DNA from: a virus
Virus record (IMG/VR): IMGVR_UViG_3300025616_000004
Coordinates: 1 to 64,000 of that record
DNA: 64,000 bases
Reading direction: 5' to 3' (one strand)
The notes beneath the pieces are model-generated. The model did no database searches and was not told the DNA's origin. It saw only the letters and a program-made list of their open reading frames with translations. A program made the translations under genes and the position numbers. Positions 1-21,737 of the stretch are shown piece by piece (the first letter of the stretch is position 1; each line of letters starts with the position of its first letter).

Positions 1-93
1 ATCCCAGAAGTATAAGAATATATAAGGCTCTTCTGTCTTGTCCATGGGCTTTATTACAGCTAATATTATCTCCTCATCTTTTATTATTATCAT
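1..93 (-). CDS. Partial small phage protein, likely RELLK-tail family (3' end outside window)
   Basis: Only about 30 codons lie inside the window; the gene runs off the left edge. The ATG at 93 overlaps the TGA of the preceding gene by four bases, and GGGAG lies 8 nt upstream inside the last codons of that gene. The N-terminus (MIIIKDEEIILAVIKP) carries the hydrophobic strand seen in the paralogues to its right (LVAI type), so it is probably another member. The diagnostic C-terminal tail is out of view. Confidence 0.6.
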   Translation of the reverse strand, partial: MIIIKDEEIILAVIKPMDKTEEPYIFLYFWD

Positions 94-374
94 CTTAGTA
101 GCTCCCGAATCATTAGTAACTTTTTTATCTTCTTCTTAGACTTAGTAGTTTTAACATTTGTAAATAAGATTCTATCTCGTTGTAGCTCGGTATCTAGTTT
201 TCCGCTGGGCATAAAGGTGTGAACTCCGTTACTACTAATATCATGAGCTACAAGCTTTCCATCCTTATTATAGGAGTACCCGTATAATATTCTTGAACCT
301 GAGTACGAGAGAGCTATGTATTCTATACCTTCATCATTTTCTATCTTTTGTGTAGGATATAGTTTTGGTTTCAT
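90..374 (-). CDS. RELLK-tail family small protein (94 aa)
   Basis: Function unknown. The N-terminal part contains the strand EYIALSYSG and the C-terminus ends KKLLMIRELLR, the tail shared by about 20 genes in this region. Four-base ATGA overlaps join it to its neighbours on both sides. The end codons CGG GAG CTA CTA AGA TGA supply GGGAG as ribosome site of the next gene. Its own start at 374 is preceded by TTGGAGTTATTAAA inside the remnant upstream. Small, basic, no membrane segment. Confidence 0.8.
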   Translation of the reverse strand: MKPKLYPTQKIENDEGIEYIALSYSGSRILYGYSYNKDGKLVAHDISSNGVHTFMPSGKLDTELQRDRILFTNVKTTKSKKKIKKLLMIRELLR

Positions 375-516
375 TTTAATAACTCCAAAGTCATTAAATA
401 TTTACTGATAATACTAGTCTTGGTTGATACTGTTCTACACTTATCCATACGTAAAGTTGAAACATGGTAGTAAGATTGAGGACAGATGTTATATAAGTTA
501 ACTTGGGTCTAATCAT
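371..516 (-). pseudogene. Frameshifted RELLK-tail family member
   Basis: ATG at 516 has a good ribosome site (AAAGGAGTGTTAC). That frame gives a 40-codon ORF (start MIRPKLTYIT) stopping at 394. Another frame of the same stretch reads ISKYLMTLELLK up to a TGA at 371-373 that overlaps the next ATG, exactly as in intact family members. The distance from ATG to this TGA is 146 bases, not a multiple of three, so at least one indel separates start and tail. The tail codons with the embedded TTGGAG ribosome site survive. Confidence 0.6.
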
Positions 517-883: not shown

Positions 884-1198
884 TTATTTTAATAACTCCT
901 TCATCATTAAGAAATTGTTTATAACCTTTACATCCCTAGTTGTTTTATACCCTTGAGATCTGTCATAGCTAAGGTGTTGACTCAAAGACTTTCTAATATT
1001 AATACCTTCTGTATGAAGATTGGAATCCCATACATCTTTAGCATAATAAGGACAATCTTTATGTTCAATCATGCTTTCTGTGATACATTCGAGATAAGTC
1101 TTACCATCTCCTTTAAAGACATGAGTACTATACAGAACATATTCTATTATATCCCTACTGTCTATGAAGGTTGACAATGCTACATATTTCCTATTCAT
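884..1198 (-). CDS. RELLK-tail family small protein (104 aa)
   Basis: N-terminus MNRKYVALSTF carries the family strand, C-terminus INNFLMMKELLK the family tail. Its ATG overlaps the TGA of the frameshifted upstream copy (ATGA). Here the end codons AAG GAG TTA TTA AAA are followed by TAA and a 16-nt gap, and the next gene has its own ribosome site. The ELLK tail is therefore kept even where it is not needed as a ribosome site, which argues that the peptide itself also matters. Confidence 0.8.
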   Translation of the reverse strand: MNRKYVALSTFIDSRDIIEYVLYSTHVFKGDGKTYLECITESMIEHKDCPYYAKDVWDSNLHTEGINIRKSLSQHLSYDRSQGYKTTRDVKVINNFLMMKELLK

Positions 1199-1429
1199 TT
1201 CAATAACTCCCCCGCCATTAAGAACTTATTAGCTTCTTGAACTCCTTCCACTAAAAAAGGGTCAGTTAAAGTACTTTTATCATACTTAAAATTCTCCTCA
1301 AGACTCTGCTCAGATGCGTAGTTAGTAGTTCCATTATAAAACTCTATGTGTAATTCATTGCCTACCATAAAGTATTTGTACTTTATTTTGCCCTTGTCTA
1401 GGGTTAACGCTACATATTTTTTTACTCAT
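1195..1429 (-). pseudogene. RELLK-tail family member with a frameshift in an A7 run
   Basis: Start ATG at 1429 follows AGGTGGCAGGC. After ATG AGT comes a run of seven A; with six A the frame would read MSKKYVALTLDKGKIKYKYF and continue open to ANKFLMAGELLK and TGA at 1195. As written, the ATG frame stops after about 25 codons and the family frame has no start. This is a one-base insertion in a homopolymer: either a real mutation, a sequencing error or slippage-dependent expression. The tail overlaps the next ATG as usual. Confidence 0.6.
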
Positions 1430-1497
1430 GCCTGCCACCTATAATCTTTACAGTCGTACTTCTTCTTAGTATACCGATTATTTCAATAACTCCTTAA

Positions 1498-1770
1498 TTA
1501 ACCAAAATACTCCACAGGTTCACCGTCGTTCTCCTCAACTCTTCCCATGTAGTCTTCGAAATCAAGCCCCCTATCCTCAGCCCATAGAAGGGCTTCCTCA
1601 TCCGAGAAGCCACTGTCCCAATCTCTGTTATTATCTTTATCGATACTATCCAAGGCACTACTCAAATAAATATCAACGTAAGCATCCCTCATATACTCTA
1701 GGTATGCTCTCTCTAAACTCTTTTTATCATTTCTGGCTTTAGTTATTAACTCCCTGATCTTATTAATCAT
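1498..1770 (-). CDS. Acidic phage protein of unknown function (90 aa)
   Basis: Not recognised. A basic N-terminal helix (residues 1-25) is followed by a strongly acidic half with many Asp, Glu and Trp (DWDSGFSDEEALLWAEDRG). It lacks the family tail, but just after its stop, out of frame, stands AAGGAGTTATTGAAATAA, the DNA of a KELLK tail. This looks like a recombination scar. Start at 1770 follows AAAGGAGTTAATGAA. Confidence 0.7.
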   Translation of the reverse strand: MINKIRELITKARNDKKSLERAYLEYMRDAYVDIYLSSALDSIDKDNNRDWDSGFSDEEALLWAEDRGLDFEDYMGRVEENDGEPVEYFG

Positions 1771-1796
1771 TTCATTAACTCCTTTAATTAACCTAC

Positions 1797-2413: not shown

Positions 2414-2731
2414 TTACTTTAACATTTTACCAGTAGCTATCCTAGGGTGCAAGTCCTTTATTTTTTGATGATATTCCCCCATTGCCCTCCGTATAGCTTC
2501 CCTATCAGTCAGTACTTCCCTATCTGTATAATCTTCAAATCTCTTGATAGCTTCTTCACGGCTATGTGAAGTCTTAACTAATACATGTTTAAACCTATCT
2601 TTAAATAATATCTCCTCAGTGAATTGCCATGGGCAGGTACTTATATAATACTTACCTTGCGAACTATAAAACGCAACGGAGGGCAAGGTGTCTAATATTA
2701 CTAATATCTCCAATGTAAAATCTTTATTCAT
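2414..2731 (-). CDS. Small phage protein, distant RELLK-tail relative (105 aa)
   Basis: Start chosen at ATG 2731, which overlaps the TGA of the upstream gene and has GGGGGTG 8 nt before it; an upstream in-frame ATG lies inside the previous gene. The end IATGKMLK keeps only the last residues of the family tail. The middle holds REAIKRF and REAIRRAMGE helices. Function unknown. Confidence 0.65.
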   Translation of the reverse strand: MNKDFTLEILVILDTLPSVAFYSSQGKYYISTCPWQFTEEILFKDRFKHVLVKTSHSREEAIKRFEDYTDREVLTDREAIRRAMGEYHQKIKDLHPRIATGKMLK

Positions 2732-3039
2732 TTCAACACCCCCTTCCATATTAGATTATCTATTGTATTATCCATAGGATCTCCATTAATATGGAAAGTA
2801 ATACATCCTTTATAAGGAGAGGGTTCTTTAAAATAACTAAGAACTAGTATGGGAATAGTATAGGAATATCGTTTGCCATTAGTCCTGATGCCTACACTGG
2901 AGCTAGTTAAATTGCCCTTACGAGTGTAGTTTTTTACTATATTTAAACAGACTCCAGTATCTCTTCTTATAAATCTACCATGACTTGAGATACAGTATTC
3001 ATTATCTTGACGAAAAACTTTCCACTGCTCTTCTTTCAT
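2728..3039 (-). CDS. Degenerate HNH/NUMOD4-like protein (103 aa)
   Basis: The first 30 residues (WKVFRQDNEYCISSHGRF) match the pattern of NUMOD4 DNA-binding segments, and the second half (VLSYFKEPS...ITFHINGDPMDNTIDNLIW) follows the HNH_3 layout xHxDGxxxxNxxxNLxW. The HRLVA part with the catalytic His and the second His-Asn context are altered, so nuclease activity is doubtful. It ends WKGVLK with TGA overlapping the next ATG, so this former homing gene has adopted the coupling tail of its neighbours. Confidence 0.6.
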   Translation of the reverse strand: MKEEQWKVFRQDNEYCISSHGRFIRRDTGVCLNIVKNYTRKGNLTSSSVGIRTNGKRYSYTIPILVLSYFKEPSPYKGCITFHINGDPMDNTIDNLIWKGVLK

Positions 3040-3122
3040 TTTAACAACATCCTATTTATTTTTAACTAAAACCAGTAACAAATGGATTAGAATGCCCTAG
3101 GGACGAGAAAGTTGTAATTCAT
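3036..3122 (-). pseudogene. Highly reduced RELLK-tail family remnant
   Basis: ATG at 3122 overlaps the TGA of the upstream gene and opens MNYNFLVPRAF followed by a stop, resembling the family N-terminus (LVAI strand). The stretch ends with codons for NRMLLK and a TGA overlapping the ATG at 3039. Only about 85 bp remain between the two coupling junctions, as expected from an internal deletion. Confidence 0.4.
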
Positions 3123-3391
3123 CTCATCAACTCCATAATCATAGAATACTTCCTAAGTTCTTTCTCCTCCTGTACGATACTAAAACTTGTACATTCAAAG
3201 ATAGCTAATCTCCTTCTAAGATCATGATCTACTTCCCTAAGAGTATGTAGGGTAGAACGGTCAAGGTAATCTTCTCCAAGATAAACACACTCCTCTACAT
3301 ACATCCCATACTCATCAAGGTGGAAAAACTTTGTATCAAGTCTCTGTAACGGAGGAATTGCCACAGCTACTAAATTTTTAACTACGTTCAT
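3119..3391 (-). CDS. RELLK-tail family small protein (90 aa)
   Basis: N-terminus KNLVAVAIPP contains the family strand; C-terminus LRKYSMIMELMR is a divergent form of the tail. Both ends overlap neighbours by four bases. The final codons GAG TTG ATG AGA TGA still provide a GGAG core for the remnant downstream. No catalytic motif can be seen. Confidence 0.75.
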   Translation of the reverse strand: MNVVKNLVAVAIPPLQRLDTKFFHLDEYGMYVEECVYLGEDYLDRSTLHTLREVDHDLRRRLAIFECTSFSIVQEEKELRKYSMIMELMR

Positions 3392-3714
3392 TTTAATAGC
3401 TCCCTTGTCATCATATATCTATCAATCTCTTGTTGTGAACTTACAGCTACTAATTCATATCCATTTAATGCATCCTTACTAAATTTAATTAGTTCTTTAA
3501 GACAGTCTTCCCTAGAGGGGTACTTATTACTTAGGTAGTGTTTACGGATCTTCCCTAGCCTACCCTCTTCTTTTATAGCTTGAAAGAAGAGGACACCCGA
3601 AGATATAAAGTAAGTATAAGTATGCCTATCCATCTCGGAGCTCATGGATATTGCTATATACTCTTGTTTCATTACTTTAGCATCGTTAAACATTTTACCA
3701 GTACCTTCTTTCAT
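3388..3714 (-). CDS. RELLK-tail family small protein (108 aa)
   Basis: C-terminus IDRYMMTRELLK, strand QEYIAIS near residue 17. The start at 3714 (MKEGTGKMFN) has AGAAGG upstream. The first 15 codons look like a translated junction: ACTGGTAAAATGTT and AAAGTAATG are shared with the end of the gene at 2414, so the original start may have been the ATG of MKQEYIAIS. Followed by a four-base overlap. Confidence 0.75.
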   Translation of the reverse strand: MKEGTGKMFNDAKVMKQEYIAISMSSEMDRHTYTYFISSGVLFFQAIKEEGRLGKIRKHYLSNKYPSREDCLKELIKFSKDALNGYELVAVSSQQEIDRYMMTRELLK

Positions 3715-4225: not shown

Positions 4226-4411
4226 CTAGATAATCCCCCTGAACAACATGCTAAAGACAATTACAAGTATAGATGCTACAATGAATGCTATAATTTCTGA
4301 ATCATCAAATTCTGAATCATCTTTAATATACTTGCCCCTATCTACTCCTAGACGACTATCCATGGATTTAGTAGATTCACTTTTAATCCTCTGGTATTCT
4401 TCTTTGTTCAT
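4226..4411 (-). CDS. Small C-tail-anchored membrane protein (61 aa)
   Basis: A polar, charged N-terminal 38 residues is followed by one hydrophobic segment (IIAFIVASILVIVFSMLF, about residues 40-57) and a short end, suggesting a single membrane span with the N-terminus in the cytoplasm. Overlaps the preceding gene by 29 bases. Function unknown. Confidence 0.65.
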   Translation of the reverse strand: MNKEEYQRIKSESTKSMDSRLGVDRGKYIKDDSEFDDSEIIAFIVASILVIVFSMLFRGII

Positions 4412-4565
4412 GTATTTTTATCTCCTTACGTATTCTTTTATATGCTTTGCCTACTCCCTTATCATTTTCATCTTCAACTCTCATGTCACAATCAAATAAG
4501 TTTTCTTCTACCCAATCCAGTATAGCACATAAATCATCCAAAGTCAAGTTTATCTGTTCTCTCAT
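4383..4565 (-). CDS. Hypothetical acidic/basic helical protein (60 aa)
   Basis: Not recognised. Charged helical sequence (LTLDDLCAILDWVEENLF, then AYKRIRKEIKIHEQRR). Its ATG overlaps the TGA of the RELLK-tail gene upstream (AGGGAGTTATTAAAATGA), so it is translated by the coupling site encoded there although it is not itself a family member. Confidence 0.7.
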   Translation of the reverse strand: MREQINLTLDDLCAILDWVEENLFDCDMRVEDENDKGVGKAYKRIRKEIKIHEQRRIPED

Positions 4566-4876
4566 TTTAATAACTCCCTCACCATAAGATACTTATTGAT
4601 CTCTTTCTCATCTGTTATTACTTTGAAGCTACTATTATAATTACAAAACCTGCTACTATCTGAGGATAGTCTATCTCTAAGTTCTTCCGCAGATCTGTAA
4701 TGTATTCTATCAATATTATCATAAGGATTTACGTCTTGATAATAGTATAACTCTTTACAAGTCCTACAGTATAATCCAAAAAGGATTCCCTCTTCGTCCA
4801 TGTAAACACCTTCTATAAACCTAGACTCTCCTGGGCATATAACCAAGGCTACTCTTTCAGCTACTCTTGTTCTCAT
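4562..4876 (-). CDS. RELLK-tail family small protein (104 aa)
   Basis: Strand RVALVICPG near the N-terminus, tail ITDEKEINKYLMVRELLK at the end. Middle part has YYYQDVNPYD and SAEELRDRL, matching the helix before the tail in other members. End codons AGG GAG TTA TTA AAA TGA give a perfect ribosome site for the gene at 4565. Function unknown. Confidence 0.8.
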   Translation of the reverse strand: MRTRVAERVALVICPGESRFIEGVYMDEEGILFGLYCRTCKELYYYQDVNPYDNIDRIHYRSAEELRDRLSSDSSRFCNYNSSFKVITDEKEINKYLMVRELLK

Positions 4877-5133
4877 TTCAATAACTCCTCAAGCATTAAA
4901 TACTTTACTGTCTCCTCGGGGGTAGCTAATCTCCTGTTAGTATTTCCTGAGAGTAGTCTTCTCATATCTCCTTTGTCTTTATGGTTAAAGAATGAAGGAA
5001 GTCTTGTTCCAGTACCGTACCCGTCTGTAGTAACATAGTATGTTCCGTAGTTTCCTTCTCTCCTACTTGTTTCCTTTGTTAGTTTGATAAAAGTCATGTT
5101 ATCATCTATAATTAAGAGTATGAATTTTCTCAT
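4873..5133 (-). CDS. RELLK-tail family small protein (86 aa)
   Basis: N-terminus MRKFILLIIDDN is a more hydrophobic version of the family strand. C-terminus ATPEETVKYLMLEELLK keeps the tail. Its start shares one base with the upstream stop (TAATG) and its stop overlaps the next ATG by four bases, with GAGGAG in the final codons. Confidence 0.8.
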   Translation of the reverse strand: MRKFILLIIDDNMTFIKLTKETSRREGNYGTYYVTTDGYGTGTRLPSFFNHKDKGDMRRLLSGNTNRRLATPEETVKYLMLEELLK

Positions 5134-5510
5134 TATTTTAATAACTCCTGTGTCATTAGTATCTTATTTATTTCTTTAGGATCTGTAATAAGTTTATGAC
5201 TCTCTGGAATACAATCTAGGAGTATCTGGAGTGAAGTACATTCAGCACGACATCGTCCACTATCCCATACATGTTCTGATGGAGTGTAGTAGCATATTAC
5301 TTCTCGATAGTATTTCAGATTGATCTCGTTCATTATAACTCCAGATGGAAGTACCCGTCTCATCCAATACAGAAGGCTAACATCCTCATCACCAAAACTA
5401 CCGCTCCATGCTAGTAGACTATAAGGTAATACCTCGATAGCTACCAGTTCAATTTCTGGATGGCTAGTCTCCATGTTAATAGTTACGTATTTAATTCCGA
5501 GATATTTCAT
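5133..5510 (-). CDS. RELLK-tail family protein, YWMRR subgroup (125 aa)
   Basis: One of three closely related copies (with 5797-6165 and 6162-6467). Blocks in order: ELVAIEVL strand, LLYWMRRVLPSGVI hairpin, a Tyr-rich segment with ICYYTP, a helix SLQILLD, then LITDPKEINKILMTQELLK. The conserved blocks along the whole chain show that the family is a real protein fold, not only a shared end. Function unknown. Confidence 0.8.
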   Translation of the reverse strand: MKYLGIKYVTINMETSHPEIELVAIEVLPYSLLAWSGSFGDEDVSLLYWMRRVLPSGVIMNEINLKYYREVICYYTPSEHVWDSGRCRAECTSLQILLDCIPESHKLITDPKEINKILMTQELLK

Positions 5511-5797
5511 TTTAATAACTCCCTAGTCATCAAGTACCTATTGATCTCTTTCTCGTCTGTTATAACTTCTTTACTGTAATCATCTTCATAGTCTCTTACT
5601 ATACATTTTATATTAGTGTACCCATTGTAGAATATTCCTATACTACTACGATGTATTTTAAAGTCATAATAAGGTATAGTCTTTAATACTGTCTTACGAC
5701 TTCCCCACATAGAACCCAGCCTCTCATAGAAAGCATAGACTAGAGCACCTCCCTGCCTATATTTAACTATAGCTACTAATTTTAAATTGTCTTCCAT
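5507..5797 (-). CDS. RELLK-tail family small protein (96 aa)
   Basis: N-terminus DNLKLVAIVKYRQGG, C-terminus VITDEKEINRYLMTRELLK. It lies between two members of the YWMRR subgroup but lacks that block, so the neighbours are not simple tandem duplicates of each other. Start shares one base with the upstream TAA (TAATG). Confidence 0.8.
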   Translation of the reverse strand: MEDNLKLVAIVKYRQGGALVYAFYERLGSMWGSRKTVLKTIPYYDFKIHRSSIGIFYNGYTNIKCIVRDYEDDYSKEVITDEKEINRYLMTRELLK

Positions 5798-6165
5798 TAC
5801 TTTAGTAACTCCTTTGTCATTAATATCTTATTAATTTCTTTAGGATCTGTTATTAGATTATTAAGGGATGAGGTTGAATCTAGTAATTCTTTAAGTGATT
5901 TGCGTTCATACTGTCTTTCAGCTATGTTCCACATATAATCTAATGAAGAGTAACATATCAGTTTTGAATAGTACTCTCTATTAAAATCATTATCTATAAT
6001 TCCTTCTGGAGCTATCTTTCTCATCCAGTAGAGAGTTGTAATCTCTATCTCCCCCATCCCTCCACAGAAGCGGGGGTATGCTAGTTCTTCAATAGCTACT
6101 AGTTCACAAGGAGAGCCGTGCTTACTTAAATCTATATTCATTGTTGTTGTTAGTATAGGTTTCAT
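5797..6165 (-). CDS. RELLK-tail family protein, YWMRK subgroup (122 aa)
   Basis: Close paralogue of 5133-5510: CELVAIEEL, TLYWMRKIAPEGII, ICYSS, SLKELLD and LITDPKEINKILMTKELLK occur in the same order with similar spacing. The divergence is large enough to be old, or under diversifying pressure. Coupled to both neighbours by overlapping stop and start codons. Confidence 0.8.
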   Translation of the reverse strand: MKPILTTTMNIDLSKHGSPCELVAIEELAYPRFCGGMGEIEITTLYWMRKIAPEGIIDNDFNREYYSKLICYSSLDYMWNIAERQYERKSLKELLDSTSSLNNLITDPKEINKILMTKELLK

Positions 6166-6467
6166 CTCCGTAACTCCATGATCATTAATATCTTATTGAT
6201 CTCTTTTCTATCTATTATCAATTCGATAGCAACTGGGTTTATCTTAATTAGTTCTTCTAAAGAACTTCTCATATCTTCACAGATATTGTTCCAGTCATAG
6301 TTTATATAAGAATGTGCTTGGATAGCTTTAGGATCATGAAAGACTACACCTTCTATAGGAATTCTTCTAATCCAATAAGCACATAACCACCGTCCACTAA
6401 GTTCTTCTAGACGTTGGATAGCTACTATTTCACAAGGGATAACTGGTGTCCGAACCCATGTATTCAT
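6162..6467 (-). CDS. RELLK-tail family protein, YWIRR subgroup (101 aa)
   Basis: Shorter third copy of the subgroup: CEIVAIQRL, AYWIRRIPIEGVV, SLEELIK and IIDRKEINKILMIMELRR. The last residues are ELRR; the codons still leave GGAG-like sequence before the next ATG, and the stop overlaps it. Confidence 0.8.
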   Translation of the reverse strand: MNTWVRTPVIPCEIVAIQRLEELSGRWLCAYWIRRIPIEGVVFHDPKAIQAHSYINYDWNNICEDMRSSLEELIKINPVAIELIIDRKEINKILMIMELRR

Positions 6468-6817
6468 CTCAACAACTCCTTTATCATTAAAGCTTTCTTA
6501 AAGTCTTTATCTTTTATAGGAAGCTTTTTAGCGTAGTCTTCCAAATTTAGTTGATAGTAACATTCAATACTCGAAAGAATTAGATTACTGTTAATACTTT
6601 GACGTTTCCTCATAATATTTGTAATAAAAAATGAAAGTATTTCAGTATCATAGAGTACTACTATAGTATCCCTTATGGAGAAGTTAATATTTAGAATAGT
6701 CTTAAAACTTAAAGCCGTGTACGTAAGTTTAAAATCTCGTAGGTCTTTACTATTCTTAGGTTTATTTAGATTAATATAGAATATACTACTATCATCAGAA
6801 GCTTTGTAAATCTTCAT
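6464..6817 (-). CDS. RELLK-tail family small protein (117 aa)
   Basis: The N-terminal part is divergent (KIYKASDDSSIFYINLNKP) and AT-rich; the strand LTYTALSF lies later than usual. The C-terminus LPIKDKDFKKALMIKELLR is a clear tail. Four-base overlaps on both sides. Function unknown. Confidence 0.75.
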   Translation of the reverse strand: MKIYKASDDSSIFYINLNKPKNSKDLRDFKLTYTALSFKTILNINFSIRDTIVVLYDTEILSFFITNIMRKRQSINSNLILSSIECYYQLNLEDYAKKLPIKDKDFKKALMIKELLR

Positions 6818-7074
6818 TTCAGTAGCTCCCTAGTCATTAAATACTTGTCCAGTTCCTTAGAGTCTGTTATGAAGTATTTAGGGTTGGCTACCATCCATGC
6901 TAACTTTTTTATAGACCAATTACGATCTAAGCATATGTCCTGCATTCCTAAGGTCTTTGAAAATATAGAACTCCAATATATCTCACCCAGTTCATCACGG
7001 TAGTAGGCTAAGTTTGATTCATTATTAACAGACTTAGCTATAGCTACTAGAGTTAATATTGAAGGTCTCCTCAT
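6814..7074 (-). CDS. RELLK-tail family small protein (86 aa)
   Basis: Compact member: LTLVAIAKSVNNE strand, YYRDELGEIYW hairpin, helix and FITDSKELDKYLMTRELLK. The end codons AGG GAG ... TGA overlap the next ATG. It follows an unrelated gene (7078-7425) after a 3-nt gap. Confidence 0.8.
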   Translation of the reverse strand: MRRPSILTLVAIAKSVNNESNLAYYRDELGEIYWSSIFSKTLGMQDICLDRNWSIKKLAWMVANPKYFITDSKELDKYLMTRELLK

Positions 7075-7077
7075 CTG

Positions 7078-7425
7078 TTATCCTCTTGCATTTAATGTTA
7101 AGTAAAGACCTGTCTGAGCTCCTATCAAGTCCATCAATCCGTCACAATATATATCCTTGAACTCTATTCTTTTAGTTATCTTTACATCATATCCTTTTGT
7201 TATCTTCTTCATATAAAAAGTTACGTCATATAAATCTTTTCCGTTTAAGATAATGTCGATAGTATTAACTTTAGCAGATTTAATCTTACCTATCATCAAA
7301 CCATTACCCTGTACTTTATTATCTATTTGCATACAGTTAGCTACAGTAATTCCGAGCATAAGCATTAAAGTTCTCCCACCTATTTGATTAAAGATAGCCT
7401 TAGTTATTTCTTCTGGTTTACTCAT
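7078..7425 (-). CDS. Hypothetical phage protein (115 aa)
   Basis: Not recognised. The first 35 residues form a helix with a mildly hydrophobic stretch (RTLMLMLGITVANCMQI), followed by alternating beta-type sequence (VNTIDIILNGKDLYDVTFYM). AAAGGAGATAAAGCT precedes the start at 7425. It is the first gene of a transcript from the hairpin promoter at 7460-7494. Confidence 0.7.
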   Translation of the reverse strand: MSKPEEITKAIFNQIGGRTLMLMLGITVANCMQIDNKVQGNGLMIGKIKSAKVNTIDIILNGKDLYDVTFYMKKITKGYDVKITKRIEFKDIYCDGLMDLIGAQTGLYLTLNARG

Positions 7426-7459
7426 AGCTTTATCTCCTTTTAGTTAACAGTATCTAAAT

Positions 7460-7494
7460 ATAGTAGCAGAGTATTAACTCATTGTCAATACTCT
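7460..7494 (-). promoter_or_regulatory. Promoter inside an 8-bp inverted repeat
   Basis: Minus strand TTGACA (7483-7488), 17 bp, TACTAT (7460-7465). The -35 box starts in one arm of the perfect repeat AGAGTATT/AATACTCT (7468-7475 and 7487-7494). It precedes the gene at 7425. Confidence 0.65.
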
Positions 7495-7517
7495 CTTTCT
7501 CTATTATTAAATTATTG

Positions 7518-7757
7518 TTACTTTAGTAACTCTTCCACCATAAGATATTTATCAAATAGTTTTTGATCCAGTATTTTAAAATCTTGTCTCGTCTGTACAT
7601 ATTGGCGTAATAGATCACAAATATCTCCTAAGTACTCTGTAATAGGGAGTGAGCTCGTAACAGAAGAGTACTCCATTAAAATTGATAGAGTATCCGTCAT
7701 CCAATATACTCTTGAGAATATTCCGTTAGGTTCTTGGTATATAGCTATCTTTTTCAT
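7518..7757 (-). CDS. RELLK-tail family small protein (79 aa)
   Basis: Among the shortest complete members, showing the minimal family plan: strand KKIAIYQE, hairpin RVYWMTD, helix DICDLLRQYV, then FKILDQKLFDKYLMVEELLK. Its ATG overlaps the TGA of the EF-Ts-like gene upstream. Confidence 0.8.
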   Translation of the reverse strand: MKKIAIYQEPNGIFSRVYWMTDTLSILMEYSSVTSSLPITEYLGDICDLLRQYVQTRQDFKILDQKLFDKYLMVEELLK

Positions 7758-7939
7758 TTACTATCCCTAACTAACTTCCTAACTAATCTCTCGAGTTTTT
7801 CTATTCTAGCTTCTAAGCTGAGTATCCTATCTTCTCTTTCTTGTGAGAGTATTGCTTCCTTTGCCTCCATGATTCCACATCCATACTTGAGTCTATAGGC
7901 TTGAATCTTTTCTGAGGTTGTAGTTATAGGTTTAGCCAC
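7754..7939 (-). CDS. UBA-like and coiled-coil small protein (61 aa)
   Basis: Residues 10-30 (KIQAYRLKYGCGIMEAKEAI) resemble the UBA/TS-N helix bundle at the N-terminus of elongation factor EF-Ts (pattern LRxxTGAGxMDCKKAL). Residues 33-58 form a heptad-like basic coiled coil (ILSLEARIEKLERLVRKL). Start is GTG at 7939 with GGGGGGAAAATAAA before it. A link to the host translation machinery is only suggested by this similarity. Confidence 0.65.
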   Translation of the reverse strand: MAKPITTTSEKIQAYRLKYGCGIMEAKEAILSQEREDRILSLEARIEKLERLVRKLVRDSK

Positions 7940-7953
7940 TTTATTTTCCCCCC

Positions 7954-8202
7954 TTATTTTTCTAATTCTTCTATCATTAAATACTTATCGAATAGCTTAT
8001 TATCGTATATATAGAAATCAGGGTTGCCTCCAAACTCCTCCAATAGACACTTGAATCCTCCAAAATAAAAAAGATTTATGAGGGATGAATGCATTCCTCT
8101 TTCCATATCATACAAAATAGTATTAGTGTCTTTGTTTAAAAAGAACTTCTTAGTGTATCTCCTATAGAAATCATAATACTCTGCAAAGTACTTAGTATTC
8201 AT
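7954..8202 (-). CDS. RELLK-tail family small protein (82 aa)
   Basis: Aromatic N-terminus (YFAEYYDFYRRYTKKFF) replaces the usual LVAI strand; the tail FYIYDNKLFDKYLMIEELEK is nearly that of 7518-7757. It has a normal stop followed by a GGGG-rich ribosome site for the GTG-started gene downstream, so no overlap on this side. Confidence 0.75.
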   Translation of the reverse strand: MNTKYFAEYYDFYRRYTKKFFLNKDTNTILYDMERGMHSSLINLFYFGGFKCLLEEFGGNPDFYIYDNKLFDKYLMIEELEK

Positions 8203-8519
8203 TTTAATAGCTCCCTTGCCATCATGTATTTATTAACTTCCTTATACCCTCTTATGAGGTAATAGTTACCCACACCTGAGTATTCCTCAGCTAACTTATC
8301 TAAAAGATCTCCCGAAAATCTAGTGTCTCTTCCCCACAGAGGTTTTTCTAATAACTGGCTGTTTTCTTTATCAGCTATATAGAAAAGTTTATCTTGCATA
8401 ATATAGAACCTGTAAGATATTTCCTCTATCATTCGATCATATCCATATCTGAATATAGATATAGCTATCGGAGACATCCCTTCAAGTATCATTACCTCCC
8501 CTAGAGTTACTTTACTCAT
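8199..8519 (-). CDS. RELLK-tail family small protein (106 aa)
   Basis: Blocks: MSPIAISIFRYG strand, YRFYIMQDKLFYIAD hairpin, helix LLDKLAEEY and GYKEVNKYMMARELLK. Most similar to the next member 8516-8836 in layout. Four-base overlaps at both ends with AGGGAG in the last codons. Confidence 0.8.
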   Translation of the reverse strand: MSKVTLGEVMILEGMSPIAISIFRYGYDRMIEEISYRFYIMQDKLFYIADKENSQLLEKPLWGRDTRFSGDLLDKLAEEYSGVGNYYLIRGYKEVNKYMMARELLK

Positions 8520-8836
8520 TGTAGTAATTCCCTCATCATCATATGCCTTTTGATCTCTTTAGTATCTGTTGTAAAAGAAAAGTTCCTATAAGTTGCATAC
8601 GCTTCAGTAAGCTTCCCTAGGGTTTCTAATTTTTCTTTACTAGAACTAACAATCCAACAGGTAGGATCTCTAAAGTTATTATAGTGAGTTGAAGATATTA
8701 CACAAAGTTTACTACCTAGCACATAGAACATATAAGCTATTTCAGGTTGTCCGTCCCTAGGATTAAAGAGAGATAACCCGTCTGGAATAGTTCTCATACG
8801 TAGTGTATTAGTATTCTCAAGCGTAATCTTTGTCAC
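8516..8836 (-). CDS. RELLK-tail family small protein (106 aa)
   Basis: Blocks as in 8199-8519: YMFYVLGSKLCVISS hairpin, helix LGKLTEAYA, then FTTDTKEIKRHMMMRELLQ. The final codon change to Gln leaves the AGGGAA ribosome site before the next ATG. The upstream neighbour is a complete HNH endonuclease gene, two bases away. Confidence 0.75.
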   Translation of the reverse strand: MTKITLENTNTLRMRTIPDGLSLFNPRDGQPEIAYMFYVLGSKLCVISSTHYNNFRDPTCWIVSSSKEKLETLGKLTEAYATYRNFSFTTDTKEIKRHMMMRELLQ

Positions 8837-8838
8837 AT

Positions 8839-9543
8839 TTATAATCCCTTAACAAACTTAGTTACTAATACACTGATACCAGTACCTTTACCACTCTCTT
8901 TAAATACCCCATCAATCTTCTCTTGACACACTGAACTAGATTCTACAATACTCTGAAATTCCCTACATTCTAAAACAAACTCCCAATGTAAATGTCCTGC
9001 TGTCTTTACTCTACCCGCACAACAATTTGAAATATATTTGTCGAGTACGCCAGTTTTAGATTCCGCTTCAACTTGTGAGCTATAGACAATGCCTGTCTCA
9101 ATACACCTAACTGGTCTATGCCTAGATCTCTTGGTATTTATATGTATAGTCCTACCTTTAGCTTTTAACCCTATCTTATCCCTCGTTTCCTGAGAATGTT
9201 TATATCCTAGAGTATCAGATCTATGTCTCATGTTCTCTTCGGGAGTACACCATTCAATATTCTCAATAGAGTTATTGGATGTATTACCATCTATGTGATT
9301 TATGTAAGGTTTATCCTCATCATTAGGGATGAATGCGATAGCAACAAGCCTGTGCACTCTCTGTTGATTTTTTGTAGGTAACGTCACAAAGGGATAACCC
9401 TTACCATCTAACCTTAACTTTAGTAGTTGCTCTCTCCCAGTACGTGCATAGTTTAGACTTTTGACATTACCTAGATTCGAGACCAAGTATCTTCCTTCAT
9501 AACCTTTGATGTCTCTAAACAACTCTATGATATTATCATTCAT
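8839..9543 (-). CDS. NUMOD4-HNH homing endonuclease (234 aa)
   Basis: Free-standing homing endonuclease. Residues 6-35 fit NUMOD4 (IKGYEGRYLVSNLGNVKSL); residues 62-105 fit HNH_3 with VHRLVAIAFIP, NHIDGNTSNNS and NIEWCTPEEN, so the catalytic His and Asn are present; residues 110-135 look like NUMOD3 repeats and 143-192 like NUMOD1 (VRCIETGIVYSS ... GHLHWEF). It would nick or cut a cognate site in a related phage. It interrupts the small-gene array between two RELLK-tail genes, with no intron visible. Confidence 0.9.
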   Translation of the reverse strand: MNDNIIELFRDIKGYEGRYLVSNLGNVKSLNYARTGREQLLKLRLDGKGYPFVTLPTKNQQRVHRLVAIAFIPNDEDKPYINHIDGNTSNNSIENIEWCTPEENMRHRSDTLGYKHSQETRDKIGLKAKGRTIHINTKRSRHRPVRCIETGIVYSSQVEAESKTGVLDKYISNCCAGRVKTAGHLHWEFVLECREFQSIVESSSVCQEKIDGVFKESGKGTGISVLVTKFVKGL

Positions 9544-9553
9544 TATAGTTCTC

Positions 9554-9823
9554 CTACTTAATAAGTTCTCTTGTCATCAGATACTTCTTAAATCCAGCTA
9601 TATCTTCATATACTACATACTTTGGATCATTCTTAAATGTTTCCAATGCTTGTTCTGGAGTTGAGTTTGCCCATATCCTCGTTCTCGACCAATCATAGTT
9701 TCTATATTTAATTCTAGTTTGATAGTTTAATCCCTCGTATATGAAGAATTTGAAGTCAAGGGAATCCTCCAGACTGTGAGCTACGAAGAGTCCTTGAACA
9801 TCATCTCCGAATAGTTCATTCAT
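9554..9823 (-). CDS. RELLK-tail family small protein (89 aa)
   Basis: Strand GLFVAHSLEDSLDFKFFIY, helix TPEQALETFKND, tail IAGFKKYLMTRELIK. The stop is followed by 9 nt and the homing endonuclease gene. Its ATG shares a base with the upstream TAA (TAATG). Confidence 0.8.
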   Translation of the reverse strand: MNELFGDDVQGLFVAHSLEDSLDFKFFIYEGLNYQTRIKYRNYDWSRTRIWANSTPEQALETFKNDPKYVVYEDIAGFKKYLMTRELIK

Positions 9824-10098: not shown

Positions 10099-10133
10099 GA
10101 CAGTCTCCTTTAATTAAATAACTTCACTTATAC

Positions 10134-10169
10134 ATAATAGCATAAAAAAAGAGAGCCGTCAAGGCTCTC
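10134..10169 (-). promoter_or_regulatory. Overlapping intrinsic terminator and promoter
   Basis: Minus strand: stem GAGAGCC, loop TTGAC, stem GGCTCTC, then seven T, a complete intrinsic terminator for the upstream gene. The same bases give a promoter: TTGACG (10157-10162), 17 bp containing the T run, and TATTAT (10134-10139) with an extended TGC before it. The same construction occurs at 11084-11119. Confidence 0.75.
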
Positions 10170-10197
10170 AATGATGTAAGGTTAATACTTTGTTACA

Positions 10198-10476
10198 TTA
10201 ATCTAACTTGTGTTGTTTAAGATAATAGCTAGGGATGTTGCCACCGTACATGGCTGAGTAAGCATAGCCCCAGTTTAGAGGTTCATCTATCTTATTGTTA
10301 ATCCATTTTCTTACCATAGAGTTTCCGTTGTTCCACACTTGACCTTCCCACTTATCAGGGTTAGTATCTCCCGCCAATTCTTTAATCTTGTCTATAGCTT
10401 TCTGCCTATCAAGAGTTCTGAAGACTATCTCGTTTCCTTCCCTAGAAGCTGACTTTGTTATTTCATAAACTGACAT
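10198..10476 (-). CDS. Hypothetical phage protein (92 aa)
   Basis: Not recognised. Pattern of an amphipathic helix (DRQKAIDKIKELAGD) between beta-type segments, then a Trp- and Tyr-rich end. GGGAGAGTTT precedes the start at 10476, inside the end of the HNH gene. Last gene before the terminator at 10151. Confidence 0.65.
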   Translation of the reverse strand: MSVYEITKSASREGNEIVFRTLDRQKAIDKIKELAGDTNPDKWEGQVWNNGNSMVRKWINNKIDEPLNWGYAYSAMYGGNIPSYYLKQHKLD

Positions 10477-11051
10477 AAACTCTCCCGTCTTTCCTTGTTA
10501 ACTATCTTTATTAGTTTAATGTGAAAAGGTGTTCTAACCTCATGAGGTATGTGTTTAATTTCAAGTTCCTTTAGGATATTACTCATTACTTTAAGATCTC
10601 TCTCTTCAACCTTATGACCCTTCCTAGAATTACAATCCATACACATAGTTTGGTAATTAATAAGATTATTAATTCCACCTAAAGTTTTAGGAAGTATGTG
10701 ATCTTGTGTGAATTCTACTTCACTTCCATCTCCTCTTACAGCCATAAGATGAAATCTATATTCATTTGATATGTTATATACATTCCCTTTACCCATCCAC
10801 ATACCATGCTTCTCCAGTATAAAGTACTGAGCTTCTAATCCACACTTAGCACATACATGACTCTTTTCAAATACTCTGTACTTGGATTTAGACAAGCCTA
10901 CTAAAGTTCCATCGAAGTTTATTTTATCTTTACTACATGCTTCAGTCAAATTATCTAGGATTTCTCTTACGCCATACTTTTTAAAGTCTGGATGTTTTAT
11001 TCTACCCTGTCTTTGAAGTCTTCCTGTTAGCCTTACTCGTTTAGTTTCCAT
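10458..11051 (-). CDS. HNH endonuclease (197 aa)
   Basis: Contains the zinc-stabilised HNH domain: CAKCGLEAQ at about residues 65-73, FTQDHILPKTLGG with the catalytic DH, NNLINYQTMCMDCNSRKG with Asn and the second Cys pair. Start taken at ATG 11051, eight bases after AAGG; an ATG two codons upstream is too close. It is probably a free-standing homing endonuclease, though phage HNH proteins can also serve in packaging. Confidence 0.85.
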   Translation of the reverse strand: METKRVRLTGRLQRQGRIKHPDFKKYGVREILDNLTEACSKDKINFDGTLVGLSKSKYRVFEKSHVCAKCGLEAQYFILEKHGMWMGKGNVYNISNEYRFHLMAVRGDGSEVEFTQDHILPKTLGGINNLINYQTMCMDCNSRKGHKVEERDLKVMSNILKELEIKHIPHEVRTPFHIKLIKIVNKERRESLCQFMK

Positions 11052-11083
11052 AAACATTTCCTTTTATCTAACCTTACACGAAT

Positions 11084-11119
11084 AGAATAGCATAAAAAAA
11101 GAGAGTCGTCAAGACTCTC
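11084..11119 (-). promoter_or_regulatory. Overlapping intrinsic terminator and promoter
   Basis: Stem GAGAGTC, loop TTGAC, stem GACTCTC and seven T on the minus strand. Promoter reading: TTGACG (11107-11112), 17 bp, TATTCT (11084-11089). Stem bases differ from the copy at 10134-10169 in a compensated way (T-A instead of C-G), which supports selection for the hairpin. Ends the RELLK-tail gene at 11150 and starts the HNH gene. Confidence 0.75.
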
Positions 11120-11149
11120 AGTAAGGTTATTGAAATGAAACTTTACAAT

Positions 11150-11389
11150 CTATTTTAATAATTCTTCGGTCATTAGAATTTTAGAAACTTCTATTGGATC
11201 TATTATCTCAGCATCAGGATATCTTTGTAGTAATTCAGTTAGAGTATTAAATATAGTTTCAACTCCTTGGCTGGCTATATGTGATAGTATCCTATGGCAG
11301 TAGTCTGTAAGTGGGATACCTGTCCCATCTTGTAGATATACAGAATATATAAAATCATTCTCACAGAATGTGACTAGTATATTTTTCAT
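11150..11389 (-). CDS. RELLK-tail family small protein (79 aa)
   Basis: Rightmost member. Strand NILVTFCEN, hairpin SVYLQDGTGIPL, helix TLTELLQRYPD, then IIDPIEVSKILMTEELLK. It stands apart from the main cluster, beyond the HNH genes, and ends directly before a terminator, so its tail has no coupled gene to serve. Start follows TTAGGAGAATCGCT. Confidence 0.8.
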   Translation of the reverse strand: MKNILVTFCENDFIYSVYLQDGTGIPLTDYCHRILSHIASQGVETIFNTLTELLQRYPDAEIIDPIEVSKILMTEELLK

Positions 11390-13430: not shown

Positions 13431-13447
13431 TTGTATTAGAAGAAAGA

Positions 13448-13520
13448 TATATAGAGTGGAAGTCGAATCCACACCGTTCCCGCTAATGGAGAACATTCTA
13501 TCCTGTTAAACTATCTATAT
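13448..13520 (-). tRNA. tRNA with noncanonical anticodon loop CATTAGC (TTA at 34-36)
   Basis: Every arm is regular: acceptor ATATAGA/TCTATAT, positions 8-9 TA, D stem GTTT/GAAT, anticodon stem TTCTC/GGGAA, T arm GTGGA-TTCGACT-TCCAC. The loop at 32-38 is CATTAGC, so position 33 is A instead of the near-universal T and positions 34-36 are TTA, which would pair with the stop codon TAA. Amino acid undetermined. Confidence 0.65.
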
Positions 13521-13534
13521 ACCTCTCCTCCGTT

Positions 13535-18927: not shown

Positions 18928-19167
18928 TTATTCTATGTCTCCTAGAATTTCTAATATTAAACCTAAATCTCTTCTAAGTTCTTTTGGAATATGGTTATCT
19001 AGTAGCAGGGAGCTTACGTCAATGCAGAAAAGTCTTATGCCGTCTATATCCTCTAAATCAAATAGTATAGTATCTACCACTTCTATCAAGTAGCTTATAG
19101 AAGGTTCATACGTAGATGACACTAGTATTGTCTTAATCAATATCATCTTTTCCCTTACGTTATTCAA
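18928..19167 (-). CDS. Hypothetical helical protein (79 aa)
   Basis: Not recognised. Hydrophobic-helical sequence (ISYLIEVVDTILFDLEDI). Start overlaps the end of the Rad50 C-half gene by 8 bases, so it is part of the recombination operon. Confidence 0.65.
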   Translation of the reverse strand: MNNVREKMILIKTILVSSTYEPSISYLIEVVDTILFDLEDIDGIRLFCIDVSSLLLDNHIPKELRRDLGLILEILGDIE

Positions 19168-19804
19168 TAGATACCTCCTCTCCCATAACTAACTCAACCT
19201 TCCCATCAACCACACGATACGATCTGTTAGCGAACTCTAAAAACCTTTCATCATGTGTTATAAGTACAATCTTAAACTGGTTACTAATACAAATTTTGTC
19301 TATGAATGTAAATAGGTTTTGAAGGTAATCGACGCTTAAATTAGAATACTTCTCATCGAGTATTAGTTTAGTGCTCCCAGCGTTTATAAGGACAAATAAG
19401 TTGAGGACTACTGAGACTACGGAACGAACTCCGTTGCCACATCCATTCCTTAAACTAACCTTAAAGCCTCCATTATCTAAATCTATAACGCTAAAAGATA
19501 AATTCTTAGTCCCCCGCTTGTCTTCTAAGTCTATGTCTATCTCATAGTTCTTATCATAAAATACAAATCTTAGAGCAGAGTTTATTAATTCTTTTAAAGC
19601 TCCTATACTTTTTTCATAGAGTATATCTTGGGATTTCTTATAGTACACTGCTGAGTCCTGCACTATCTTTAACTCAGCTTCCTCTACTTTAATCGTAGTC
19701 TCCAATGTTTCAATAGTAAATTGAAACTTCTTAGAGTAGTTCTCGAAATCCTCATACATCTTAATAGTATATGATAAAGTGTCTATCACTTCTTGGTTGT
19801 TCAT
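19160..19804 (-). CDS. SbcC/Rad50-type ATPase, C-terminal half
   Basis: Carries the second half of an ABC-type ATPase head: a coiled-coil N-terminus, signature region NGCGNGVRSVVSVVLNLF, Walker B with STKLILDEKYSNLS and the H-loop LITHDERFLEF. There is no Walker A, which is encoded separately at 20628-21737. Start taken at ATG 19804, overlapping the upstream stop (ATGA) with GAAAGGATTCTATCG before it. 214 aa. Confidence 0.82.
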   Translation of the reverse strand: MNNQEVIDTLSYTIKMYEDFENYSKKFQFTIETLETTIKVEEAELKIVQDSAVYYKKSQDILYEKSIGALKELINSALRFVFYDKNYEIDIDLEDKRGTKNLSFSVIDLDNGGFKVSLRNGCGNGVRSVVSVVLNLFVLINAGSTKLILDEKYSNLSVDYLQNLFTFIDKICISNQFKIVLITHDERFLEFANRSYRVVDGKVELVMGEEVSIE

Positions 19805-20346
19805 CGATAGAATCCTTTCAAACGTGCTAAAGCACTCCCCCAAAATCCCATGTCTTTTAATATTATACTTGTAGCTACTATTCTACTAGGATCTACTTTT
19901 TGGATCTCGCTCCTCTTAATCTCTTCTTCATCATCTATGTAGAAATCATCGCCATATAAACTAGGTTGAGAGTAGTCTAATATCTTATTTTTTAGGGAGT
20001 TAATTTCACTTTCAAAGTACTCAATGTATGGATTGACTCCTGAAAATCCCTCAGGTAGTCGTACGCTCTCTATCATCTCAGATAGGTCATTAAGTCTTTT
20101 TTCCAAGACTTCTTTTTTAGAGAGTTCCTGTTTCACTACTTCAACATGCTCTGATGATATGTTAAATGTTCTTGGTTTTGTAAGCTCATGATTATCTTTA
20201 AGTTGACTATCGGATCGTACATAACTAAACTTATAACCATCACTGTCAAAGTTGCTATAACACACACATGTTCTACAGCAACAGTACTGATAGCCATACC
20301 CAATAACATGGTTATGATTACAGTAGGAACATCCTTTAATTACCAT
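19801..20346 (-). CDS. Cys-rich coiled-coil protein inside the split Rad50 locus (181 aa)
   Basis: N-terminal 30 residues hold many Cys and His (CSYCNHNH, CCCRTCVCY), a likely metal site. Residues 65-110 are charged and helical (EVVKQELSKKEVLEKRLNDL). It lies between the two Rad50 halves. Start at ATG 20346, ten bases after AGGAGG; a GTG three codons earlier is too close. May contribute coiled-coil or a hook-like metal contact. Confidence 0.65.
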   Translation of the reverse strand: MVIKGCSYCNHNHVIGYGYQYCCCRTCVCYSNFDSDGYKFSYVRSDSQLKDNHELTKPRTFNISSEHVEVVKQELSKKEVLEKRLNDLSEMIESVRLPEGFSGVNPYIEYFESEINSLKNKILDYSQPSLYGDDFYIDDEEEIKRSEIQKVDPSRIVATSIILKDMGFWGSALARLKGFYR

Positions 20347-20361
20347 TATCAACACACCTCC

Positions 20362-20631
20362 TTATGAAATCAAATCATTCTTAACTTCTGCTATCTTAGG
20401 CTGAACTTCTTTAAGATATTCCTTAGCTTTTCTAAACTCCTCGGACACATGCTCACTTAAATCATCCCTTAACTTCTTTAACTCCTGCGGAGTCTTAACT
20501 CCATGCTTCATAAGTTTCTCTTTAACATTAGAAGCTACTACCTTAGCTGTGGCTTCCATACTTGTTATATCATTATATGTGGATTCTAATTCCTTCTTCA
20601 ATGCTTCGAACTCTTTTACATCTATGTTCAT
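20362..20631 (-). CDS. Coiled-coil protein inside the split Rad50 locus (89 aa)
   Basis: Almost entirely heptad-like helix (FEALKKELESTYNDITSMEA ... FRKAKEYLKEVQPKIAEVKN). The ATG overlaps the TGA of the Rad50 N-half gene. It has the length and composition of a coiled-coil arm segment, so it may complete the arm of the divided ATPase. Confidence 0.65.
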   Translation of the reverse strand: MNIDVKEFEALKKELESTYNDITSMEATAKVVASNVKEKLMKHGVKTPQELKKLRDDLSEHVSEEFRKAKEYLKEVQPKIAEVKNDLIS

Positions 20632-21737
20632 GCTACCCCCTTACTTATACTTTGACTACATAACGGACATACCTTAATACTTGACAGTTTCTTTTCTAAT
20701 TCAATCTTCTTATCCGTAGCTATCCTTATATTCTCTTTTAACTTCTGATGACTGCCTATTAACTTTGCTAAGTCTTCTAGGTCATGGTTTAATTCATTCA
20801 AGTTACTTATCTTTGAGAAATCAAATCTCTGAATAGGTATATCTAAATCTATAAGCTTACTATTTGACTCTATGTATTTGATGTCCTTATCAATATCTCC
20901 TAGCTTATCGATTCCAGATAAATCAAACCTAACTATCTCTTCGTTAAAGTTTGCTACCTTTTCGTAGCCGTCTATATATTTTATATCCTTATCTAACGAA
21001 ACTAGCTTAGACATGCCTGATAAATCAAACTGTTTTCTTTCTAGCGTCTTCAACTTATTTAAAGTTTTAATACCTTCTGTTACTATATTCATATCGTTAT
21101 TCATACTTGTGTACTTGATAGCTATCTGAGTTAGTTCTTCCTTCTTCTTATGTAATGATTGGAGTGGATTCTCTTCTATGAATTGAGTCACCTTAGATAA
21201 CTTATCAGTGTTCTTTTTTAACTCCGTACTATGTCCAGTTATTAATCTTCTACGAGAAGTTTCATCATCCTTTATATACTTTAATACTTCTGATGAATTA
21301 TTTATAGAGAAAGTACTTTCAAACAGTTTATACATCTGAGCTGGGTTTCTATCAAAAGGGAACAGTATAGACCACTCGTCTTGTATGTTTATTATGTTAC
21401 CTTCATCATCTCTAAGAAATCCTGTATCCTCTACGAGATCGAATAGGTCTGTCTTACCTACCTTCTGATGTAACTCTCCTTTTATCTCGTAGAATGACCC
21501 CTTAGTCGTCCTAGACCAAGTAACATTAAGTTTATCGTCATTCAATGTAACTTCTGTCTTATCCTCCCCATGCTTAATAAACGATTTAGCGTCGGAGCTA
21601 TTTGTAAGTACACACGTCAACGCCCTGATGATTGAGGTCTTGCCCGAATTCGAAGGTCCTACTATGGTGGTGACTCCTTGAGGAAAATAAAGTCGGGCAC
21701 TTTTTATACTTTGGAAATTTGATATTTTTATCTTCAA
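20628..21737 (-). CDS. SbcC/Rad50-type ATPase, N-terminal half with zinc hook
   Basis: Walker A GPSNSGKTS (residues 27-35) after MKIKISNFQS, the typical start of SMC/Rad50 proteins. Then a long coiled coil with repeated units around LSGMSKL/LSGIDKL/FSKISNL, and near the end CPLCSQ (about residue 358), the zinc-hook Cys pair that joins two arms. The chain stops just after the hook, so the returning arm and second head half must come from other genes. Confidence 0.85.
   Translation of the reverse strand: MKIKISNFQSIKSARLYFPQGVTTIVGPSNSGKTSIIRALTCVLTNSSDAKSFIKHGEDKTEVTLNDDKLNVTWSRTTKGSFYEIKGELHQKVGKTDLFDLVEDTGFLRDDEGNIINIQDEWSILFPFDRNPAQMYKLFESTFSINNSSEVLKYIKDDETSRRRLITGHSTELKKNTDKLSKVTQFIEENPLQSLHKKKEELTQIAIKYTSMNNDMNIVTEGIKTLNKLKTLERKQFDLSGMSKLVSLDKDIKYIDGYEKVANFNEEIVRFDLSGIDKLGDIDKDIKYIESNSKLIDLDIPIQRFDFSKISNLNELNHDLEDLAKLIGSHQKLKENIRIATDKKIELEKKLSSIKVCPLCSQSISKGVA

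Follow-up and report, generated by a model that had tools for sequence, protein, structure and literature searches.

The array and its genetic setting

The window, i.e. the whole stretch of 64,000 nucleotides analysed here, belongs to a virus record of 97,230 bases and carries an array of minus-strand genes, about 19 of which end in a C-terminal tail of the type K-x-LM-x-x-E-L-L-K (Table 1). A 170,200-base IMG/VR contig overlaps the record with 99.95% identity over 14.8 kb, the window's array included, and carries the array on beyond the window; a 62.7-kb contig covers some of the rest of this phage. Genes were recognised for a tail sheath, for baseplate-type and RecA-like proteins, for a DnaB-like helicase and for a DNA polymerase that seems to contain an intein (names given by eye from the sequence, except for the genes searched). 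Because of these genes and of the matches of the tail sheath to myophages, the source is considered a tailed phage. The apparent intein lies in the polymerase gene at 32050–35544, running from CLGDNS... to ...IVSHN-C. ARAGORN placed an ochre-type tRNA (anticodon UUA) at 13446–13521, which was unconfirmed by the Rfam tRNA model, and a recombination nuclease-like ATPase at 19160–21737 is seemingly split across separate ORFs, where an intron or an insertion may interrupt it.

Table 1. Tail genes, remnants and tail-like sequences of the window
Position	Strand	Feature	Tail	Last codons	Coupling and remarks
90..374	-	tail gene	LMIRELLR	CGG GAG CTA CTA AGA TGA	coupled
371..508	-	decayed gene, start unclear	LMTLELLK	GGAG-ATGA	coupling to 90-374 retained
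884..1198	-	tail gene	LMMKELLK	AAG GAG, TAA stop	uncoupled; neighbour has own AAGGAG
1195..1442	-	tail gene	LMAGELLK	GGG GAG TTA TTG AAA TGA	coupled to 884-1198; one-base frameshift near likely start
1478..1492	-	tail-like sequence		GAGTTATTGAAATAA	end of 13-codon open frame
1767..1781	-	tail-like ribosome site		AAGGAGTTAATGAAATG	after in-frame stop; DNA signal without peptide
3119..3391	-	tail gene	SMIMELMR	ATG GAG TTG ATG AGA TGA	11-codon ORF behind, scored uncoupled
3388..3714	-	tail gene	MMTRELLK	AGG GAG CTA TTA AAA TGA	coupled
4562..4876	-	tail gene	LMVRELLK	AGG GAG TTA TTA AAA TGA	coupled (ATGA) to untailed 4383-4565
4873..5133	-	tail gene	LMLEELLK	GAG GAG TTA TTG AAA TGA	coupled to 4562-4876
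5133..5510	-	tail gene	LMTQELLK	CAG GAG TTA TTA AAA TAATG	coupled
5507..5797	-	tail gene	LMTRELLK	AGG GAG TTA TTA AAA TGA	coupled
5797..6165	-	tail gene	LMTKELLK	AAG GAG TTA CTA AAG TAATG	coupled
6162..6467	-	tail gene	LMIMELRR	ATG GAG TTA CGG AGA TGA	coupled
6464..6817	-	tail gene	LMIKELLR	AAG GAG TTG TTG AGA TGA	coupled
6814..7074	-	tail gene	LMTRELLK	AGG GAG CTA CTG AAA TGA	coupled
7518..7757	-	tail gene	LMVEELLK	GAA GAG ... TAA	uncoupled
7954..8202	-	tail gene	LMIEELEK	GAA GAA ... TAA	uncoupled
8199..8519	-	tail gene	MMARELLK	AGG GAG CTA TTA AAA TGA	coupled
8516..8836	-	tail gene	MMMRELLQ	AGG GAA TTA CTA CAA TGA	coupled
9554..9823	-	tail gene	LMTRELIK	AGA GAA ... TAG	uncoupled
11150..11389	-	tail gene	LMTEELLK	GAA GAA ... 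TAG	uncoupled; then terminator-like stretch

An earlier note on this DNA had described 4562–8836 as a chain of coupled genes whose last codons are, in many copies, AGG GAG TTA TTA AAA TGA, with AGGGAG standing 8 nt (TTATTAAA) before an ATG that overlaps TGA. The arrangement was confirmed, but the exact string is present only at 4562 and 5507; at 3388, 6814 and 8199, AGG GAG is followed by other, synonymous codons for Leu, and the real pattern is the general form NNG-GAR-L-L-K with ATGA. Exceptions in the interval are the uncoupled genes at 7518 and 7954 and two genes that lack the tail (7078–7425 and 7754–7939). The ends ascribed to every gene as identical are not so at the DNA level, where synonymous codons vary freely. 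As the note had stated, 884–1198 and 11150–11389 keep ELLK with no overlapping gene.

The gene at 5133–5510 is a duplicate of that at 5797–6165 (47% amino acid identity over the aligned stretch). The frameshift in 1195–1442 (at about 1430–1442) is caused by a single additional base in a run of A behind the likely ATG, as compared with its sister in the long contig (at 102600), and could reflect decay or slippage. HNH endonucleases are encoded inside the array at 8839–9543 and 10458–11057 (NUMOD4/HNH_3 and HNH_5). The ORF at 2728–3039, with a sub-threshold match to HNH_3, ends in AAG GGG GTG TTG AAA TGA, i.e. with an embedded Shine-Dalgarno (SD) site without the tail peptide. Terminator-like intergenic elements are repeated at 10117–10208 and 11064–11145 of the window and recur in the long contig near 120.3 kb.

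Extent of the tail family

A regular expression followed by a profile search across all ORF ends of the 170-kb contig identified 71 ends with the tail, of which 69 lie in the region from 89.6 to 133 kb and the other two singly at 143 and 148 kb. The pattern ATGNNNNNNGARYTNYTNAARTRR had 41 matches in this contig, all on one strand, and none in the reversed control, while GARTTAYTRAARTRA, with 1 mismatch allowed, had 17 matches in the window (mean of 0.98 in shuffled sequences, 0 of 100 reaching 17). About 60 copies of the family are intact and have diverged strongly; besides them there are remnants. Six remnants or mini-ORFs retain both the tail and the overlap, and given these, part of the tail conservation may reflect recent ancestry.

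Searches of Pfam, PHROGs and PDB sequences, as well as tblastn against phages, returned no credible relatives, and no diverged relatives were detected in the phage, IMG/VR and GTDB collections searched. Besides scattered single matches, the tail patterns were found in IMG/VR in this phage only; in GTDB, the stricter pattern had no match and the looser one matched 82 stretches once each, which was taken as chance. In Rhizobium phage RHph_TM30, whose tail sheath is 43% identical, no C-terminus in common with the array occurs within the first 50 kb, and a literature search for a comparable phage gene family found nothing close. The multi-copy family with its common ending is new to the collections searched.

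Two constraints on the same codons

A tail was scored as coupled when its stop is overlapped or directly followed by a start codon with an ORF of 13 codons or more behind it, giving 50 coupled and 21 uncoupled tails; two of the latter have ATGA with an ORF of only 10 or 11 codons, and their placement there is conservative. Of all 71 tails, 48 have an ATGA/GTGA junction and 2 a TAATG junction, with overlaps of 4 or 1 nt. Against a null given by the family's own synonymous codon use, 44 of the 50 codons preceding Glu in coupled tails have G as their last base (17.9±3.0 expected, maximum 28 in 1000), with 6 exceptions, although this position encodes eleven different amino acids. Glu itself is GAG in 39 of 50 (20.4±3.5 expected, maximum 31), and pairing with the anti-SD has a mean energy of −7.15 kcal/mol versus −3.92 under the null (0/300). 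Uncoupled tails (n=21) have a G-ending pre-Glu codon in 7 cases (7.6 expected), GAG in 12 (8.7 expected) and an SD energy of −4.24 versus −3.69 (38/300). The two sets differ in the G-ending pre-Glu codon (Fisher p=8.7e-6) and do not differ in the adjacent variable codon (p=0.41).

At the peptide level, coupled and uncoupled tails are alike: L(-3) is present in 50/50 and 21/21, E(-4) in 49/50 and 21/21, M(-7) in 49/50 and 20/21 and K(-10) in 42/50 and 19/21, the invariance of E and M being partly built in by the first regular expression. The profile search, run on every ORF end, contributed at most 9 tails, one without E and two without M. Since the peptide is kept in both sets and the SD signal only in coupled tails, the ribosome site is conserved only where it is used. 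This comparison of synonymous codons supports the proposal in the earlier note that the same DNA serves as peptide and translation signal, and its further claim that the peptide is selected separately is borne out by the uncoupled tails, which retain the peptide without the ribosome-site signal. Two constraints act on these codons and are separable.

Coupling is not clustered on the family tree (16 changes versus 15.5 when shuffled). The tree is poorly resolved and star-like, with a median end branch of 1.45 changes per column, and its supported branches yield only one independent pair for testing, which left the pair test without power; as coupled tails are dispersed over a star-like tree, common descent is unlikely to be the cause. 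Untailed overlapping genes of the same phage also embed an SD site (mean −7.6). An embedded ribosome site is thus the ordinary rule at overlaps, and what is unusual is that one conserved peptide meets this rule about 50 times.

Predicted structure

The tail is predicted to be the C-terminal helix of a small domain consisting of four strands, a helix, a strand and a helix. In the model of one member, based on the paralog alignment (pLDDT 92.8, pTM 0.81), the elements are E5-10, E17-24, E27-34, E37-43, H49-58, E62-64 and H67-80; the model of 4562–4876 has a similar element order and a pLDDT of 67.9 overall, about 90 at the tail. The top viral match in a BFVD fold search was a WGR protein (E 5e-3, TM 0.56), a weak resemblance, and a PDB fold search gave no match at E≤0.001. 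Membership in the WGR domain family (PF05406) was rejected, since 0 of 46 members match the Pfam profile; the best PF05406 hit in the contig is below the cut-off and outside the array. The likeness to WGR is one of weak fold resemblance; neither a fold nor a sequence match of significance was obtained in PDB. The family probably consists of accessory or host-interaction proteins that diversify rapidly and have a common core helix or partner.

Rearrangements at gene junctions

Several rearrangements are centred on junctions. The tail plus terminator-like block at 11064..11176 (minus strand) is 94.7% identical over 113 nt to about 120,297–120,409 of the 170-kb contig, with 47 nt exact (junctions 89648/120323); the identity spans the tail interior to about 80 nt past the stop, and the upstream bodies are unalignable. 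Junctions 107971/132329 are identical over 41 nt, which begin at codon −8 and end 14 nt beyond the stop, between diverged flanks. In a column-permutation null, 35 nt was never reached in 200 runs; exact blocks longer than 35 nt occur in 2 of 2346 junction pairs. In addition, the block 94545–95016 is duplicated at 95204–95678, with both ends near tail junctions, and the short ORF 102600–102692 is a sister of 1195–1442 in the window in which 155 nt of the interior are missing, with the end of the gap inside the tail. The suggestion that recombination at the ends adds, deletes or shuffles members is plausible in view of this handful of events, i.e. the exact blocks, the cassette duplication and the deletion, but most junctions show no excess linkage. 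The breakpoint cases are few and tie the rearrangement ends tentatively to short repeats. No gene gain or loss was found between the two array-covering contigs (99.95% identical, same phage).

Proposed mechanism and alternatives

The tail is, very probably, a protein helix under selection that also forms a reinitiation-type SD site where the genes are coupled, with the junctions acting as occasional breakpoints. It is proposed that i) selection at the protein level holds K-x-LM-x-x-E-L-L-K, ii) a second selection, at the nucleotide level, acts where the next start overlaps the stop (ATGA, GTGA or TAATG), iii) its targets are the pre-Glu codon (NNG, with any amino acid) and Glu (GAG over GAA), which together form a GGAG-type SD site about 8 nt before the next start, iv) the terminating ribosome would then re-initiate on the next gene, and v) the junctions may sometimes serve as breakpoints for duplication, deletion or copying.

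If the ending were conserved as a translation signal only, ELLK would be a by-product of GGAG-TTATTAAA-ATG. Coupled tails are the majority, remnants with decayed bodies retain tail and overlap, and a tail-like ribosome site occurs outside the family frame at 1767–1781, all of which would suit such an origin. The uncoupled tails, however, retain E, L, M and K with their SD-forming bases at chance, which largely refutes it; moreover, the first Leu after Glu changes among Leu codons only, M and K are encoded before the SD is reached, and the tail is modelled confidently as a helix, so that this explanation is very improbable. The likeness of the tails could instead result from homogenising gene conversion or recombination rather than selection, as the 47- and 41-nt blocks exceed the permutation null and the identity of the former begins inside the tail. 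Yet such blocks are confined to the two junction pairs, synonymous codons are well mixed, and the SD bases differ sharply with the coupling state, a contrast which homogenisation would erase; we regard it as improbable.

A stronger role for recombination is somewhat less improbable, although still doubtful. The array might be one of plug-in cassettes, each ending combining a helix that binds one partner common to all, the ribosome site of the next gene and a recombination joint at which genes could be gained, lost or rearranged while translation stays intact, a picture we consider unlikely. Its junctions would then be active recombination joints and the tail would be retained mainly for gene shuffling, which we likewise hold to be unlikely. 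The duplication with both ends near junctions, the deletion mini-gene with its gap ending in the tail, the exact junction blocks and the two HNH endonucleases inside the array are in its favour, as is the amplification of T4 (PMC9391042) and T6 (PMC13096335) through short homologies. However, the events are few, perfect homology is typically below 20 nt, the array contigs are unchanged in gene content, and the tail is explicable without selection for shuffling.

Comparison with known systems

Where gene pairs overlap, termination-reinitiation with the help of an SD site is an established process (PMC6728339, PMC10666635), and the translation part of our reading is this known mechanism. As in other ATGA systems, the overlap is 4 or 1 nt and the SD is embedded in the terminal codons of the preceding gene; here, in contrast, about 50 upstream genes are paralogs with one C-terminal peptide, and uncoupled paralogs serve as natural controls. 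Overlap of protein and translation signal is usually argued from single genes, whereas this one genome offers 50 coupled and 21 uncoupled endings, a natural experiment in which the two constraints can be separated codon by codon. The analysis also exposes a phage gene family of about 70 copies with no relatives detected in the collections searched, and its array organisation would permit gene gain or loss while the neighbours stay translated.

T4 amplifies and deletes segments (dmd-tifA) via homologies of 2–10 bp (PMC9391042), and such short repeats can therefore suffice in a phage; T6 (segB) amplifies through microhomology and a homing endonuclease (PMC13096335). The present array may resemble this segmental amplification in that a few duplications or deletions seem to end at short repeats, with homing endonucleases nearby, but differs in that the repeats are gene junctions and that the copies are old and diverged rather than recent identical tandem repeats.
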